Source of the DNA: Terriglobales bacterium
GTDB taxonomy: Bacteria > Acidobacteriota > Terriglobia > Terriglobales > Acidobacteriaceae
Direction of reading: 5' to 3'
Assembly (NCBI GenBank): GCA_035937135.1
Contig: DASYVL010000022.1
Location: 1 to 42,921, forward strand
DNA: 42,921 bases
The notes under the pieces were generated by a model. The model was not told the origin of the DNA, ran no database searches, and worked only from the letters and a program-made list of their open reading frames with translations. This document shows positions 34,508 to 40,191 of the stretch, piece by piece (the first letter of the stretch is position 1; each line of letters starts with the position of its first letter). A program made the translations under genes and the position numbers.

Positions 34508-34635
34508 AATCGGTTGAGAGCCAACAGGAACTCAGACCGTCCGGCCCATCGCCTTCGGGGCGCCTTCACACGCCTGAGCCCATAGGACCCACCGCAGAGC
34601 AGGTCCTAAGGCCAAGTCTGGCCTCACCCGTCGGC

Positions 34636-34665
34636 TTGACCCTGTCAATCCGGACAGCGTACAGT
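34636..34665 (+). promoter_or_regulatory. ccm operon promoter
   Basis: TTGACC (34636-34641), 18-base spacer, TACAGT (34660-34665). Only 8 bases separate the -10 from the GTG start at 34674, so the ccmE transcript would be leaderless or nearly so. Upstream, 34508-34635 holds no gene, only a weak AGGACC/GGTCCT hairpin (34585-34608). Confidence 0.65.
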
Positions 34666-34673
34666 TTTCGGAA

Positions 34674-35147
34674 GTGACATCAGCCCGCAAAAAGTACCTG
34701 CGTTTCGGCGTGGCCATCGGCGTCATCGTGCTTTCGCTCGGCTACCTCGCCTACACCGGCGTGGAACAGAGTAAGAGCTACTACGTCACCATCGCCGAGC
34801 TGCGCCAGCAAGCCTCCCAGGGCGACGCCGTCTACTCCAAGCGACTGCGCGTGGCCGGCACGGTTGAGCCTGGCTCCATCCGCCGCCAGGGTTCCAAGGT
34901 CGAGTTCACTCTGGTCGAGGAAGGGAAGACGCTCCCCGTCATCTACCGCGGCAGCGAGGCGCCCCCGGACACTTTCAAGGACGACTCCCAGGCCCTGGCC
35001 GAGGGCGAGTTCGGCCGCGACGGCGTCTTCCACGCCCGACAGCTCCAGGCCAAGTGCGCTTCCAAGTACGCCCCCGCCGAGCAGCCCGGCAAGCCCGGTG
35101 CCGCCCCGGCTGTGCAGCAGAAGCCCGCCACCCCCGCTCCGAAGTAA
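34674..35147 (+). CDS. ccmE: Cytochrome c maturation heme chaperone CcmE, CXXXY variant
   Basis: 157 residues from GTG. CcmE holds heme covalently on the outer face of the membrane and hands it to apocytochromes. N-terminal anchor (FGVAIGVIVLSLGYLAYTG), then the OB-fold: RLRVAGTVEPGSIRR, KVEFTLVEEGKTLPVIYRG, PDTFKDDSQALAEGEFGRDGVFHARQLQAKC. Canonical CcmE binds heme through His in a HXXXY motif; here the aligned residues are Cys128-Ala-Ser-Lys-Tyr132, the CXXXY form known from archaea and some bacteria. A Pro/Ala-rich tail follows. First gene of ccmE-A-B-C-D. Confidence 0.92.
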   Translation: MTSARKKYLRFGVAIGVIVLSLGYLAYTGVEQSKSYYVTIAELRQQASQGDAVYSKRLRVAGTVEPGSIRRQGSKVEFTLVEEGKTLPVIYRGSEAPPDTFKDDSQALAEGEFGRDGVFHARQLQAKCASKYAPAEQPGKPGAAPAVQQKPATPAPK

Positions 35148-35252
35148 GCTCTGGCCCGTGTGGATGCGGGCGACTCGCCCGCGCCGCCGCCCGTCCCCTT
35201 CGTGTTACCTTTGTGTCCTTTGTGGTCGAGCTTTGTGATGTGATTCCCCCGC

Positions 35253-35945
35253 ATGCCCGACGCCACCGTCCCCGTCCTCGAACTCGACTCCGTCAGCAAG
35301 CTCTTCGGACGCGTCGCCGCCCTGCGCGAGGTGACCGCCGGCTTCGCTCCCGGACGCCTTTACGGCGTCTTCGGCGAGAACGGCGCCGGCAAGAGTACGC
35401 TGCTGCGCCTGATCGCCGGACTCGCCCGTCCCACTCGCGGCCGCATCCTGCGCTGGTCGAGCGACGACCTCCACCCCGCCCTCGCCCGCATGGGCTACAT
35501 GGCCCACGCCTCGCTGCTCTACGACGAGCTCACCGCGCTCGAGAACCTGCGCTACTTCGCCGGCCTCTACGGCCTCGCCGCCTCGCCCGCCTGCGAGGAC
35601 GCCATCTCCTCGGTCGGCCTCGACCCCGCGCTCTCCCGCCGCGTCGGCGACTACTCCCAAGGCATGCGCCAGCGGCTCTCGCTCGCCCGTGCCTTGCTCC
35701 ACGGCCCCGACTTGCTGCTGCTTGACGAGCCCTTCTCCAACGTGGACGCCGGCTCCGCCGCCGCCATGGCCGCGCGCCTCGGCCGCCTGCGCGACTCCGG
35801 CAAAACCATCTTCGTGGTCACCCATCAGCCCGCGCATCTCGAAGCCGTCGCCGACGAATCCCTGTGGATCGCGGCCGGCGAGATCACCGCACGCCAGGCC
35901 GGCATCCGCGCGGCGCTCGCGGCTCCTCCGGCGGTGACGCCGTGA
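35253..35945 (+). CDS. ccmA: ABC transporter ATPase of the cytochrome c maturation system (CcmA)
   Basis: 230 residues. Walker A is GENGAGKST (41-49), the ABC signature YSQGMRQRLSLARAL, Walker B LLLLDEPFSNVD and the switch His in VVTHQPAHLEA. CcmA works with CcmB, and with CcmC and CcmD releases heme-loaded CcmE. The 105 bp gap after ccmE contains CTTTGTGTCCTTTGTGGT, which looks like a dispersed spacer, and no clear ribosome-binding site precedes the ATG. The stop overlaps the ccmB start (GTGA). Confidence 0.92.
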   Translation: MPDATVPVLELDSVSKLFGRVAALREVTAGFAPGRLYGVFGENGAGKSTLLRLIAGLARPTRGRILRWSSDDLHPALARMGYMAHASLLYDELTALENLRYFAGLYGLAASPACEDAISSVGLDPALSRRVGDYSQGMRQRLSLARALLHGPDLLLLDEPFSNVDAGSAAAMAARLGRLRDSGKTIFVVTHQPAHLEAVADESLWIAAGEITARQAGIRAALAAPPAVTP

Positions 35946-36619
35946 CCGGACTCTTCGACGTCACCCGCGCCACCCTCGCCAAAGACCTGCGCCTGGAGTG
36001 GCGCTCCAAGGACGCCATCAACGCCATGCTATTTTTCTCCGTGTTGGTGGTGGTCATCTTCAGCTTCGCCTTCGACCCCACCGCCGAAGAGTCCCGCCGC
36101 ATCGCCGGCGGACTGGTCTGGGTGGCCTTCCTCTTCGCCGCCAACGTCGCCCTCAACCAGACCTGGATGCGCGAGCTGCGCAACCATGTGCTCGACGCCT
36201 ACCGCGTCTCGCCCGCCCCCGCCAATGCTCTGTTCCTGGGCAAGGCAATCGGGAACTTCTTTTTTGTGACCCTGGTCGAGCTCGCGATGACGCCGCTCTT
36301 CATCGTCTTCTTCAACCTGCGCGTCCTCGGCCCTGCCTGGCAGCTAGTGATCGTCCTCGTCCTCGGCACCTGGGCGCTGGTGGTGAACGGGACCTTCTTC
36401 GCCGCCGTCTCTTTGCGCACGCGGGTGCGCGAGCTGATGTTGCCCCTGCTGCTCTTTCCCATCTCCATCCCGGCGCTGCTGGCCATGGTCGAGGCCACCA
36501 CCGCCATCCTCACCGGCGACTCCTCGCCCCGATTTTGGCTGAACCTGCTTCTGGTTTACGATGTCGTGTTCACCACGGCCTGCTTGCTGCTCTTCGAGAC
36601 CGTCTTGCACGCGGAATGA
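35942..36619 (+). CDS. ccmB: Heme exporter protein B-type permease (CcmB)
   Basis: 225 residues from GTG 35942, which overlaps the ccmA stop by four bases; the frame upstream of it is a shadow of ccmA. Six hydrophobic helices are visible (e.g. AMLFFSVLVVVIFSFAF, GLVWVAFLFAANVALNQTW, IGNFFFVTLVELAMTPLFIV, WQLVIVLVLGTWALVV, LMLPLLLFPISIPALLAMVEA). LEWRSKDAINAMLFF and the RVSPAPANALFLGK loop are typical of CcmB. Membrane partner of the CcmA ATPase. Confidence 0.92.
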   Translation: MTGLFDVTRATLAKDLRLEWRSKDAINAMLFFSVLVVVIFSFAFDPTAEESRRIAGGLVWVAFLFAANVALNQTWMRELRNHVLDAYRVSPAPANALFLGKAIGNFFFVTLVELAMTPLFIVFFNLRVLGPAWQLVIVLVLGTWALVVNGTFFAAVSLRTRVRELMLPLLLFPISIPALLAMVEATTAILTGDSSPRFWLNLLLVYDVVFTTACLLLFETVLHAE

Positions 36620-36629
36620 AAGCACTGAT

Positions 36630-37346
36630 ATGAACTACAAATTCCTGATCTTCTCGCTCTTCACCATGGTCTTGCTCTTCTACGGCCTCCACCAGGGGCT
36701 GTACGTGGCGCCCGAGGAAAAGACCATGGGCGAGATCCAGCGCATCTTCTACTACCATGTCCCCTCGGCCTGGACCTCGTTCCTCTGTTTCTTCGTCAAC
36801 TTCATCGCCTCCATCATCTATCTGGCGCGGCGCAAGTCGAGCCCCTCCGCGGGACTCGCCGCTGACGCCGTGGCCGTCGCCACCGCCGAAGTCGGCGTCG
36901 TCTTCTGCACCATCGTCCTGGTCACCGGGCCTCTGTGGGCCCGGCCGGTCTGGGGCATCTGGTGGACATGGGACGCGCGGCTTACCACCACCCTTATCCT
37001 CTGGCTCATCTACGTGAGCTACCTTTTCCTCCGCCATAATGCCGCCGGCGGACAGGCGCCGACCCTTGCCTCCGTGGTCGCCATCATCGGCTTTCTGGAT
37101 GTGCCGCTGGTTTACATGGCCATCCGCTGGTTCCGCACCCAGCATCCGCAGCCGGTCATGGCTGGCGGCTCCAGCTCGGGCCTGGATCCGGCCATGTGGA
37201 CGGCTCTGCTCTGGAACTGGGCCGCCTTTCTAGCTTTCGGATTCCTGCTCATCTGGATGCGCTACAACCTGGTGCGCTTTGAGCAGCGCCTCGACGAGCG
37301 CCACGCCCTGGCAGCCCTCGCGGGCTCGAAAGGAGGCGCGCGATGA
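36630..37346 (+). CDS. ccmC: Heme-handling membrane protein CcmC
   Basis: 238 residues, six helices. CcmC loads heme onto CcmE. The tryptophan-rich signature WGIWWTWDARL lies at 109-118, and the two conserved external histidines that ligate heme are His43 (IFYYHVPSAW) and His172 (RTQHPQP). ATG 36630 lies 10 bp after ccmB, and the stop overlaps ccmD (ATGA). CcmF would share the WWD motif but is about 650 residues, so CcmC is the better call. Confidence 0.95.
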   Translation: MNYKFLIFSLFTMVLLFYGLHQGLYVAPEEKTMGEIQRIFYYHVPSAWTSFLCFFVNFIASIIYLARRKSSPSAGLAADAVAVATAEVGVVFCTIVLVTGPLWARPVWGIWWTWDARLTTTLILWLIYVSYLFLRHNAAGGQAPTLASVVAIIGFLDVPLVYMAIRWFRTQHPQPVMAGGSSSGLDPAMWTALLWNWAAFLAFGFLLIWMRYNLVRFEQRLDERHALAALAGSKGGAR

Positions 37347-37480
37347 ACCACCTCCACCTCGAACTCGCCTACATCTCCACCTGGGTCATCCTCATCGCCT
37401 ATATCGTCTTTCTGACCGTGAAGGTCCGAGGGCTGAAGAAGGAGTTCGAGGAACTGGAGCGAGAAGGACAGAAAAAGTAA
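37343..37480 (+). CDS. ccmD: CcmD-like small membrane protein
   Basis: 45 residues. The ATG overlaps the ccmC stop and has a perfect AGGAGG at 37331-37336. One N-terminal helix (AYISTWVILIAYIVFLTVKV) followed by a charged tail (RGLKKEFEELEREGQKK) is the CcmD layout; CcmD helps release heme-CcmE from the CcmABC complex. Sequence conservation in CcmD is low, so the call rests on size, topology and position. The stop codon lies inside the left arm of the inverted repeat at 37471-37484. Confidence 0.85.
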   Translation: MNHLHLELAYISTWVILIAYIVFLTVKVRGLKKEFEELEREGQKK

Positions 37481-37630
37481 AAAGTAAAAAGGAAGAGCGC
37501 ACTTGCTCTTGGCTGTCATCCTGAGCGAGCCCCGAGGCACAGCCGATGGGCGAGTCGAAGGACCCCTATCCTCAGAACAACGCTGAGCCCCCTGGGCGAC
37601 CAGCTTCTACTTTTTCCTTTTTACTTTTTC
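37471..37630. repeat. Element with 14-bp inverted ends between ccmD and the propeller gene
   Basis: GAAAAAGTAAAAAG at 37471-37484 and its exact reverse complement CTTTTTACTTTTTC at 37617-37630. Each arm carries the TAA stop of the gene running into it. The centre (about 37516-37567) has the CCTGAGCGAG...GAGTCGAAGGA core also present at 5213-5242. Confidence 0.65.
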
Positions 37631-40191
37631 CTTTGCTCGTACACTGTCCGCGCCTCTGCCAGCCCCTTCATCACCGCATCTTTCTCCGCCTCGCTATTCC
37701 ACCCAGTGTGCTGCCGCACCGCTTCGGTCACGCGGTCGATCCACTTCACGAAGTACGCCGCATCCTCGGGTGACGCCACCGGAGCACCCTCCACCGCGAC
37801 GTACACCGCGCTGGTCGTGGCATACGGATACGCATCCAGTACCGGATGTTCTGCCTTCTCGCTCCATGCGCGCAGCAGGCACCAGCCACTTCCGGAAATG
37901 GGAAGCGTCCCGGTGAAGTCGCCGGAATCGCGCCCGCCCTTGAGTTCGAGCGCCCGCACCACCTTCCCATTGCACACGACTTCCAAATGATCCACCGGCA
38001 CGATCGACCTCAGCCAGGCGCTGAACTTCACCTCATGCTTCCCGGCCGCGAGCTTCACCTCGCCGCCCGGGGTCTTTTCTCCCAGCCAGAACCAGACGAG
38101 CGGCCCATTGCTGACGAACGTCGCCCCGCGCTTCAGCGCCGGATAGAACCGTTCGTCGAGCTTCAGCGTCGCCAGCGGCGCCGGCAGGAAGACGCGGTTC
38201 ATCCCCACCGGCCCGCGCAGCGAGGCGTAATTCGCCATGGCATCCGTGCCCGCGCCCGCCGGCAGCCGGTAGCCCAGGTTGAGCAGCCGGTACCAAACGT
38301 CGGCCGTCGTCCGGTGCTCGCTGAAGCCCACTACCTCGATGTAATCTACCTTGCCCAGCGCTACGTCCACCGGCAGCGCGTTGGTCAGCGCCGCCTTCGC
38401 GCTCCCCGCCGCTCCACTTATCCCCGCCTCAACATCCGGCGGATCATCGAACGGGTGGACGTATCCCACCAGCGCCCGTTGCTCGTGCGCCAGGTCGGCC
38501 ACCGCGCTGTTCGAGGGATACAGACTCGCCGCCGCCGTTCCCGGATACCCGGCATAGCCCGGCATCACCAGGCCGCGATGCAGGTCGAGCAGCCCCAGGT
38601 GTCCCCAGTAGCTGGTGTGAAACTCCTGGTCGTGCACCAGCAGCCGTCCGGTCTTGGACGCCGCATCCAGCCCCATGCCCGCATAGGCGATGTCAGGGAC
38701 GCGCTGCTCCTTGTTGACGATGAGGTTCTCCACCACGTTGACGTCTTCGGCCTCCGCCTGCGCCACCATGTTCTTCGGCGTGTTGCGATACGCGCCGCCG
38801 TAGTTCATGTGGACGTGCAGGTCGCCGCTCACCCAGCGCCATCCTGGTGTCGCCGGCAGCTTCAGCGGAGTGAGGCGCACCGTGAGCGCCAGTTGCTGGT
38901 CGGGCAGCAGGTCGAGCTCGCGTCGCTCGAAGCGGTTGGCGAATCCTTTCATGACTTCGACCGTCACGCGTCCCGCCGGCGCCGTCACCGGTGCCGCTCC
39001 TGGCGAGTGGAAGTAGTGGGCCTCGAAGCGGCGCTGGCTGCGGTCGTAGCCGTCGTCGGCGCGCACCCAGGCGTCCTCGGGCGCATAAGCCAGCCCGTCG
39101 GCGCCGGTCACGGAAACGCGCGCCGCCGTCGGCTTTCCCGCGGCATCGAGCACGCGCACCAAGAGGCGCGCCATCGGCCGCATGTATTTCCGCTGCTTCG
39201 CGCGCAATTGCCGCTGCGCCCCGCCCGGCAGCTCCAGCAGCCACAGCTCGGTGTTCCCGCTGCGATTGGAGACGAACGCGATGTGCTTGCCATCCGGCGC
39301 CCACCGCGGCGCCGTGTTGTCGTAATCGCCGTAGGTGAGCTGGAGCGCGTGGCCTCCCTCTGCCGGCATCAGCCACAACTGGTTCCACTGCCGCCCCAGG
39401 TAGGAGCTATAAACCAAACGCTTGCCGTCCGGCGAAAACTCCGGACGCGCCTTCCACGCGGTTTCCTCGTAGTAGATCTCGCGCGCCTCCGCGCCCGGCT
39501 CTGCCTTCATCCGCCAGAAGCCGCCCGTGCCGTAGATGTGCCCGCGGTTGGAGACGAACACCAGCTCCCCGCCGTCTGGCGACCACGCCGGACTGATCTC
39601 GGTGTCGTACTTGCTGTAGTAGTAGCGGGGAAGCGGGTTCTCGCTCTCGCCTGTCAGCCGCTGGACGGATTGCAGCACGCCGTCTTTCACCCGCACCACG
39701 AAGATGTGGAATCGCTTGTTGTAAGAGGTAGAGACGAAAACGACGCGCGTGCCGTCCGGCGACCAGCGCGGCTCAACATTCACCGCGCCGCCCGCGGTGA
39801 GCTGATAGTTTCTTCCCGTCGCCACCTCCAGCAGGTGCAGCTCGATCGCGTCTCCGAAATAGCGCGCAAACACCACCCAACGTCCGTCCGGCGACCAGTC
39901 TGGCTGGTAGTCGTACCCCGGCCCGGCGGTCATTTGCTGCGCGGCCTCGGAATCAATCTCCTGCCGCCACAGCGACCCGGCCATGGAGTAGATCACCGAC
40001 TTCGAATCCGGCGACCACGCCACCGCGCTCGCTCCGCTGGTGAGCTGTGGCAGATACATCTCGCGGTAGTAATAGGAGTGCGGAAGGTCGATCTGCTCCA
40101 GCACCGGCCGCCGCTGCGCGCCCATGGGCGCCGCCCCAGCCACCATCAGCGCCAGAAGCAAACAACGTCGAACGCGCATCCTTCGAGACAT
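37621..40191 (-). CDS. Secreted TolB-like beta-propeller fused to a PHP/CehA-type metallohydrolase domain
   Basis: 856 residues with a signal peptide (CLLLALMVAGAAPMGAQ). Residues about 45-330 contain at least six PD40/TolB repeats with the W-SPDG turn (VAWSPDSKSVIYS, PDWSPDGRWVVFA, PRWSPDGTRVVFV, PAWSPDGGELVFV, PEFSPDGKRLVYS, PRWAPDGKHIAFV). A linker domain spans about 345-445. The C-terminal part starts with GDLHVHMNYGG (DXHXH near 455-459), then VGYVHPFDDP, YIEVVGFSEHRT and GAGTDAMAN, as in CehA/McbA-like PHP hydrolases. An exported hydrolase with a binding propeller is inferred; substrate unknown. Confidence 0.88.
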   Translation of the reverse strand: MSRRMRVRRCLLLALMVAGAAPMGAQRRPVLEQIDLPHSYYYREMYLPQLTSGASAVAWSPDSKSVIYSMAGSLWRQEIDSEAAQQMTAGPGYDYQPDWSPDGRWVVFARYFGDAIELHLLEVATGRNYQLTAGGAVNVEPRWSPDGTRVVFVSTSYNKRFHIFVVRVKDGVLQSVQRLTGESENPLPRYYYSKYDTEISPAWSPDGGELVFVSNRGHIYGTGGFWRMKAEPGAEAREIYYEETAWKARPEFSPDGKRLVYSSYLGRQWNQLWLMPAEGGHALQLTYGDYDNTAPRWAPDGKHIAFVSNRSGNTELWLLELPGGAQRQLRAKQRKYMRPMARLLVRVLDAAGKPTAARVSVTGADGLAYAPEDAWVRADDGYDRSQRRFEAHYFHSPGAAPVTAPAGRVTVEVMKGFANRFERRELDLLPDQQLALTVRLTPLKLPATPGWRWVSGDLHVHMNYGGAYRNTPKNMVAQAEAEDVNVVENLIVNKEQRVPDIAYAGMGLDAASKTGRLLVHDQEFHTSYWGHLGLLDLHRGLVMPGYAGYPGTAAASLYPSNSAVADLAHEQRALVGYVHPFDDPPDVEAGISGAAGSAKAALTNALPVDVALGKVDYIEVVGFSEHRTTADVWYRLLNLGYRLPAGAGTDAMANYASLRGPVGMNRVFLPAPLATLKLDERFYPALKRGATFVSNGPLVWFWLGEKTPGGEVKLAAGKHEVKFSAWLRSIVPVDHLEVVCNGKVVRALELKGGRDSGDFTGTLPISGSGWCLLRAWSEKAEHPVLDAYPYATTSAVYVAVEGAPVASPEDAAYFVKWIDRVTEAVRQHTGWNSEAEKDAVMKGLAEARTVYEQRKK

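Follow-up and report, generated by a model that had tools for sequence, protein, structure and literature searches.

The ccmE gene at the head of a compact ccmE-A-B-C-D operon in a Terriglobales bacterium (Acidobacteriota) encodes a cysteine where CcmE of E. coli has its heme-binding histidine, which raises the question of whether this organism matures its c-type cytochromes without CcmH. The stretch analyzed, here called the window, is 42,921 nucleotides long and makes up contig C22 (DASYVL010000022.1) of a 2.23-Mb, 192-contig draft genome (GCA_035937135.1) whose listed completeness is 100% and listed contamination 0.71%. A 2006 proposal tied Cys-type CcmE to the absence of CcmH, and the first-pass annotation of the window made the same link. 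That link was corrected in print in 2011 by a review reporting that about one-third of bacteria with Cys-type CcmE have CcmH and that absence of CcmH is not characteristic of them (PMC3601427). The groups in which the review found both Cys-type CcmE and CcmH are delta-proteobacteria, chloroflexi, and firmicutes; our literature search, which was of partial coverage, found no paper pairing Acidobacteria with CcmE or CcmH.

The ccmE gene (34674..35147, plus strand) encodes a 157-amino-acid protein that matched PF03100 with an E value of 2.1e-25, at 89.4 bits against a curated cut-off of 24.6, placing it within the CcmE family. Translation can begin only at its GTG, because the interval from the preceding in-frame stop at 34575 to this GTG contains no other start codon. 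The local protein sequence reads ...ARQLQAKC128ASKY132AP, so that the HxxxY position is occupied by CASKY at residues 128 to 132 (codons at 35055..35069, plus strand). When aligned by phmmer with the E. coli protein (8ce8_E and 1sr3_A), C128 and Y132 fell on the histidine and tyrosine of HDENY, confirming the annotated replacement of the heme-binding histidine by Cys128 and the retention of Tyr132. The cysteine was invariant in 16 diverse relatives, and a scan of genome_contigs with the motif pattern returned at least 562 confirmed relatives, with all of the matches listed coming from Acidobacteriota. The invariance among the 16 relatives, together with the 113 of 129 CcmE-bearing Acidobacteriota genomes that encode only the Cys form (see below), excludes a sequencing accident. 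Judged by its sequence, the window CcmE is of the Cys (System I*) type. In D. desulfuricans and M. acetivorans, CcmE proteins of this type need or bind heme at the cysteine (PMC9084895; PMC3601427); in Methanosarcina (M. acetivorans) the cysteine is required for heme on CcmE, and a Desulfovibrio (D. desulfuricans) case has been reported too (PMC9084895).

Each remaining gene of the compact operon was also backed by a profile. The ABC ATPase of the heme exporter is encoded by ccmA (35253..35945, plus strand), which matched PF00005 (7.4e-29) and, under the curated cut-off, TIGR01189 (1.8e-34), and which precedes ccmB (35942..36619, plus strand; PF03379, 2e-36; TIGR01190, 1.8e-22), the gene for the membrane subunit, with a GTGA overlap at their junction. 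The product of ccmC (36630..37346, plus strand; TIGR01191, 3.5e-39) aligned with E. coli CcmC (7f02_C) at 2.4e-25, contains the WWD motif (WGIWWTWDARLT), and has histidine at both positions aligned to the E. coli CcmC histidines. An ATGA overlap joins ccmC to ccmD (37343..37480, plus strand), whose 45-amino-acid product matched the alternative CcmD family TIGR04391 at 5.6e-6, over its cut-off. The next gene is convergent and unrelated, as had been annotated: it encodes a CehA/McbA-type metallohydrolase with N-terminal propeller repeats (37621..40191, minus strand; NF038032, 4.1e-58) and lies outside the ccm system. Of 80 loci from relatives, only 2 had a protein resembling this metallohydrolase close to ccmE.

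The genome was searched family by family with profiles for the other cytochrome c maturation genes. A single CcmE was detected, the Cys-type protein of the window, and no HXXXY copy was found in the draft genome. Three proteins carry a Cytochrom_C_asm domain: CcmC of the window, CcmF on contig C188, and a CcsA-type protein on contig C94. The 681-amino-acid CcmF has both the CcmF_C domain (PF16327, 7.4e-65) and the Cytochrom_C_asm domain, and it aligned with Thermus CcmF (6zmq) over almost its full length (1.3e-91), with the WWD region and histidines kept, all of which identify it as CcmF. Directly downstream of ccmF lies ccmH (L007:8123-8600, contig C188), whose product belongs to the CcmH family by its match to PF03918 (3.8e-18; 66.4 bits against a cut-off of 25). 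Its motif, MMCACGCHQILLACNHVGC, contains five cysteines in 17 residues, and the classical LRCxxC redox motif is absent from it. A function other than that of E. coli CcmH could therefore be possible; the CcmH sequence found no match among solved structures. Near variants of the motif are common to the whole of the window's family. A second PF03918 match, on contig C47 (E value of 0.68, 9.8 bits), was too weak and was set aside.

The same searches gave less for the partners of CcmF and CcmH. A 432-amino-acid protein downstream of ccmF-ccmH matched the CcmI model TIGR03142 at 21.2 bits (cut-off, 29.3), and the 95-amino-acid protein between it and CcmH matched no profile. On contig C41, a CcdA gene is adjoined by one for a membrane-anchored ResA/CcmG-like thioredoxin with WATYCGPC; the best score for the CcmG/DsbE model TIGR00385 was 68 bits against a curated cut-off of 123. 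CcmG and CcmI are thus assigned tentatively, from below-cut-off profile matches and position. System II was ruled out as a backup, since ResB was not found by the profile search, its best match falling inside ccmF at an E value of 0.08, below the cut-off. The CcsA-family protein, encoded directly before hemA (L008:8861-10947, contig C94), is probably HemX and not part of System II. Six proteins in the genome matched PF13442 (cytochrome c) and are likely c-type cytochromes needing maturation.

By gene content, then, the genome encodes System I with CcmH, and its ccm genes are distributed over at least three loci. The first-pass suggestion that the organism uses a variant System I holds insofar as its sole CcmE is of the Cys type; the system is not CcmH-less, since ccmF-ccmH is present on C188. 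That annotation had also named a second, HXXXY-type CcmE and a full ccmFGH set elsewhere as findings that would speak against it: ccmF and ccmH do occur elsewhere in the genome, and the second CcmE does not. It is unlikely that the result reflects one wrongly binned contig in the 192-contig draft, because members of the family have near-identical CcmH motifs.

The observation that ccmF, ccmG, and ccmH do not follow ccmD is correct for the window and is explained by a split of the ccm genes throughout the lineage. For 80 related Acidobacteriota ccmE loci, taken from among the matches listed, we examined the flanking sequence to a maximum of 10 kb in each direction. The order ccmE-A-B-C was found in 65; in the remaining 15, some of which are on short contigs, ccmA, ccmB, and ccmC were detected beside ccmE in part or not at all. 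Within those limits, neither ccmF nor ccmH was detected in any of the 80 loci. In the window's family, CcmE, CcmH, and CcmF were present in 20/20 sampled genomes (the window genome included), and in every one of them CcmE and CcmH were encoded either on separate contigs or at distant positions of a single contig. In many other families of the phylum, ccmE and ccmH are separated by about 2.5 kb, and CcmF is encoded in the interval. These data establish the split of the ccm genes as a feature of the lineage.

The relationship between CcmE type and CcmH was surveyed in 199 Acidobacteriota genomes, 129 of which encode CcmE. The CcmE motif was Cys only in 113 genomes, His only in 15, and both in 1. 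A CcmH (PF03918) match was present in 82 of the 113 Cys-only genomes and absent from the other 31, 27 of which are at least 90% complete. The Cys-type system therefore occurs both with and without CcmH inside one phylum, and on a poorly resolved CcmE tree parsimony required 10 changes of CcmH presence. CcmF was retained in 29 of the 31 genomes without a CcmH match (the exceptions being G091 and G136), so in this phylum Cys-type CcmE seemingly does not strictly require CcmH. The genome with both CcmE types, G069, encodes CPSKY and HDEQY proteins on different contigs (L019 and L138) and has no CcmH match; its two types could represent contamination or a second system.

CcmH of the [LIV]RCxxC form was found in 15/15 His-only genomes and in 0/82 Cys-only genomes having CcmH. 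Among Cys-type genomes, those of the window's family have the CcmH motifs CxCGC or CxCSC; elsewhere the motifs are CxCGxC, APCCW, or MSPYC. One CcmH, in G017, has a CxxC (YCPVCPNTPLDVC), but the arginine before it is missing. Two CcmH proteins are encoded in G187 (L212 and L133), one of the APCCW type and one of the CxCGC type. On a CcmE tree from which the motif columns had been left out, the Cys/His difference corresponded to one change, with support of 72. The association between CcmE type and CcmH motif thus rests on one split, functional coupling is not demonstrated by it, and it may reflect joint inheritance only.

Taken together, these findings make it highly probable that the ccm operon of the window belongs to a cytochrome c maturation system of the Cys type (System I*) that is ordinary for Acidobacteriota, includes CcmH, and has its genes at three or more separate loci. 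Going further than this explanation, and compatible with it, is the idea of two matched versions of System I, in which Cys-type CcmE and its own poly-cysteine CcmH (CxCGC...C or APCCW) evolved together as a pair because heme hand-over, including heme release from a thioether, or thiol chemistry differs between the versions. The complete separation of [LIV]RCxxC CcmH between His-only and Cys-only genomes speaks for such pairing; however, with the Cys/His difference being one change on the CcmE tree, joint inheritance explains the association equally well, and most Cys-type genomes without CcmH keep CcmF, and we consider the matched versions improbable. A reduced System I* like that of archaea and Desulfovibrio, in which CcmABCDE and CcmF function without any CcmH, would fit the Cys-type CcmE of the window, the lack of ccmFGH after ccmD, and the absence of a PF03918 match from 31 further Cys-type genomes in the phylum. 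As a claim about gene content it is ruled out by the PF03918 match beside ccmF on C188, and with ccmH present in all 20 sampled family genomes, such a system is very unlikely here. That the Cys-type ccmE is a nonfunctional or recently acquired oddity of one genome can be dismissed, given the invariance of its cysteine and the number of relatives recovered with the motif pattern.

For the favored reading, an ordinary Cys-type system with CcmH, a working scheme can be drawn by analogy with studies of E. coli, Desulfovibrio, and Methanosarcina, on which both the attachment of heme at Cys128 and all of the transfer steps are modeled. CcmA-B and CcmC-D would export heme and load CcmE, which probably binds it through a thioether bond at Cys128, Tyr132 serving as the iron ligand. 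CcmF and CcmH would then pass heme from CcmE to the CXXCH of apocytochromes, while CcdA and the adjoining thioredoxin-like protein would supply reductant and keep cysteines reduced.

The system has families A, B, C, E, F, and H in common with classical System I of E. coli (CcmABCDEFGH), which differs in having His-type CcmE, LRCxxC CcmH, and a single operon. CcmH is lacking from the System I* of Desulfovibrio as well as from that of archaea (Allen 2006; Goddard 2010; Gupta 2022), whereas the window genome encodes CcmH, CcdA, and a CcmG-like thioredoxin. Cys-type System I with CcmH (PMC3601427) is the same case, a single genome encoding both CcmH and a Cys-type CcmE; here, in contrast, the organism belongs to Acidobacteriota, CcmH is without LRCxxC, and the genes lie at several loci. 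The Cys-type CcmE is real and ordinary for its phylum. The 82 of 113 Cys-only genomes with CcmH correct the equating of this CcmE type with a lack of CcmH and put numbers on the matter for one phylum. The survey also points to a pattern in which an LRCxxC CcmH accompanies His-type CcmE, and a CcmH with some other cysteine motif accompanies the Cys type. The CcmH forms without LRCxxC could help address the breaking of the stable heme-cysteine thioether on CcmE.
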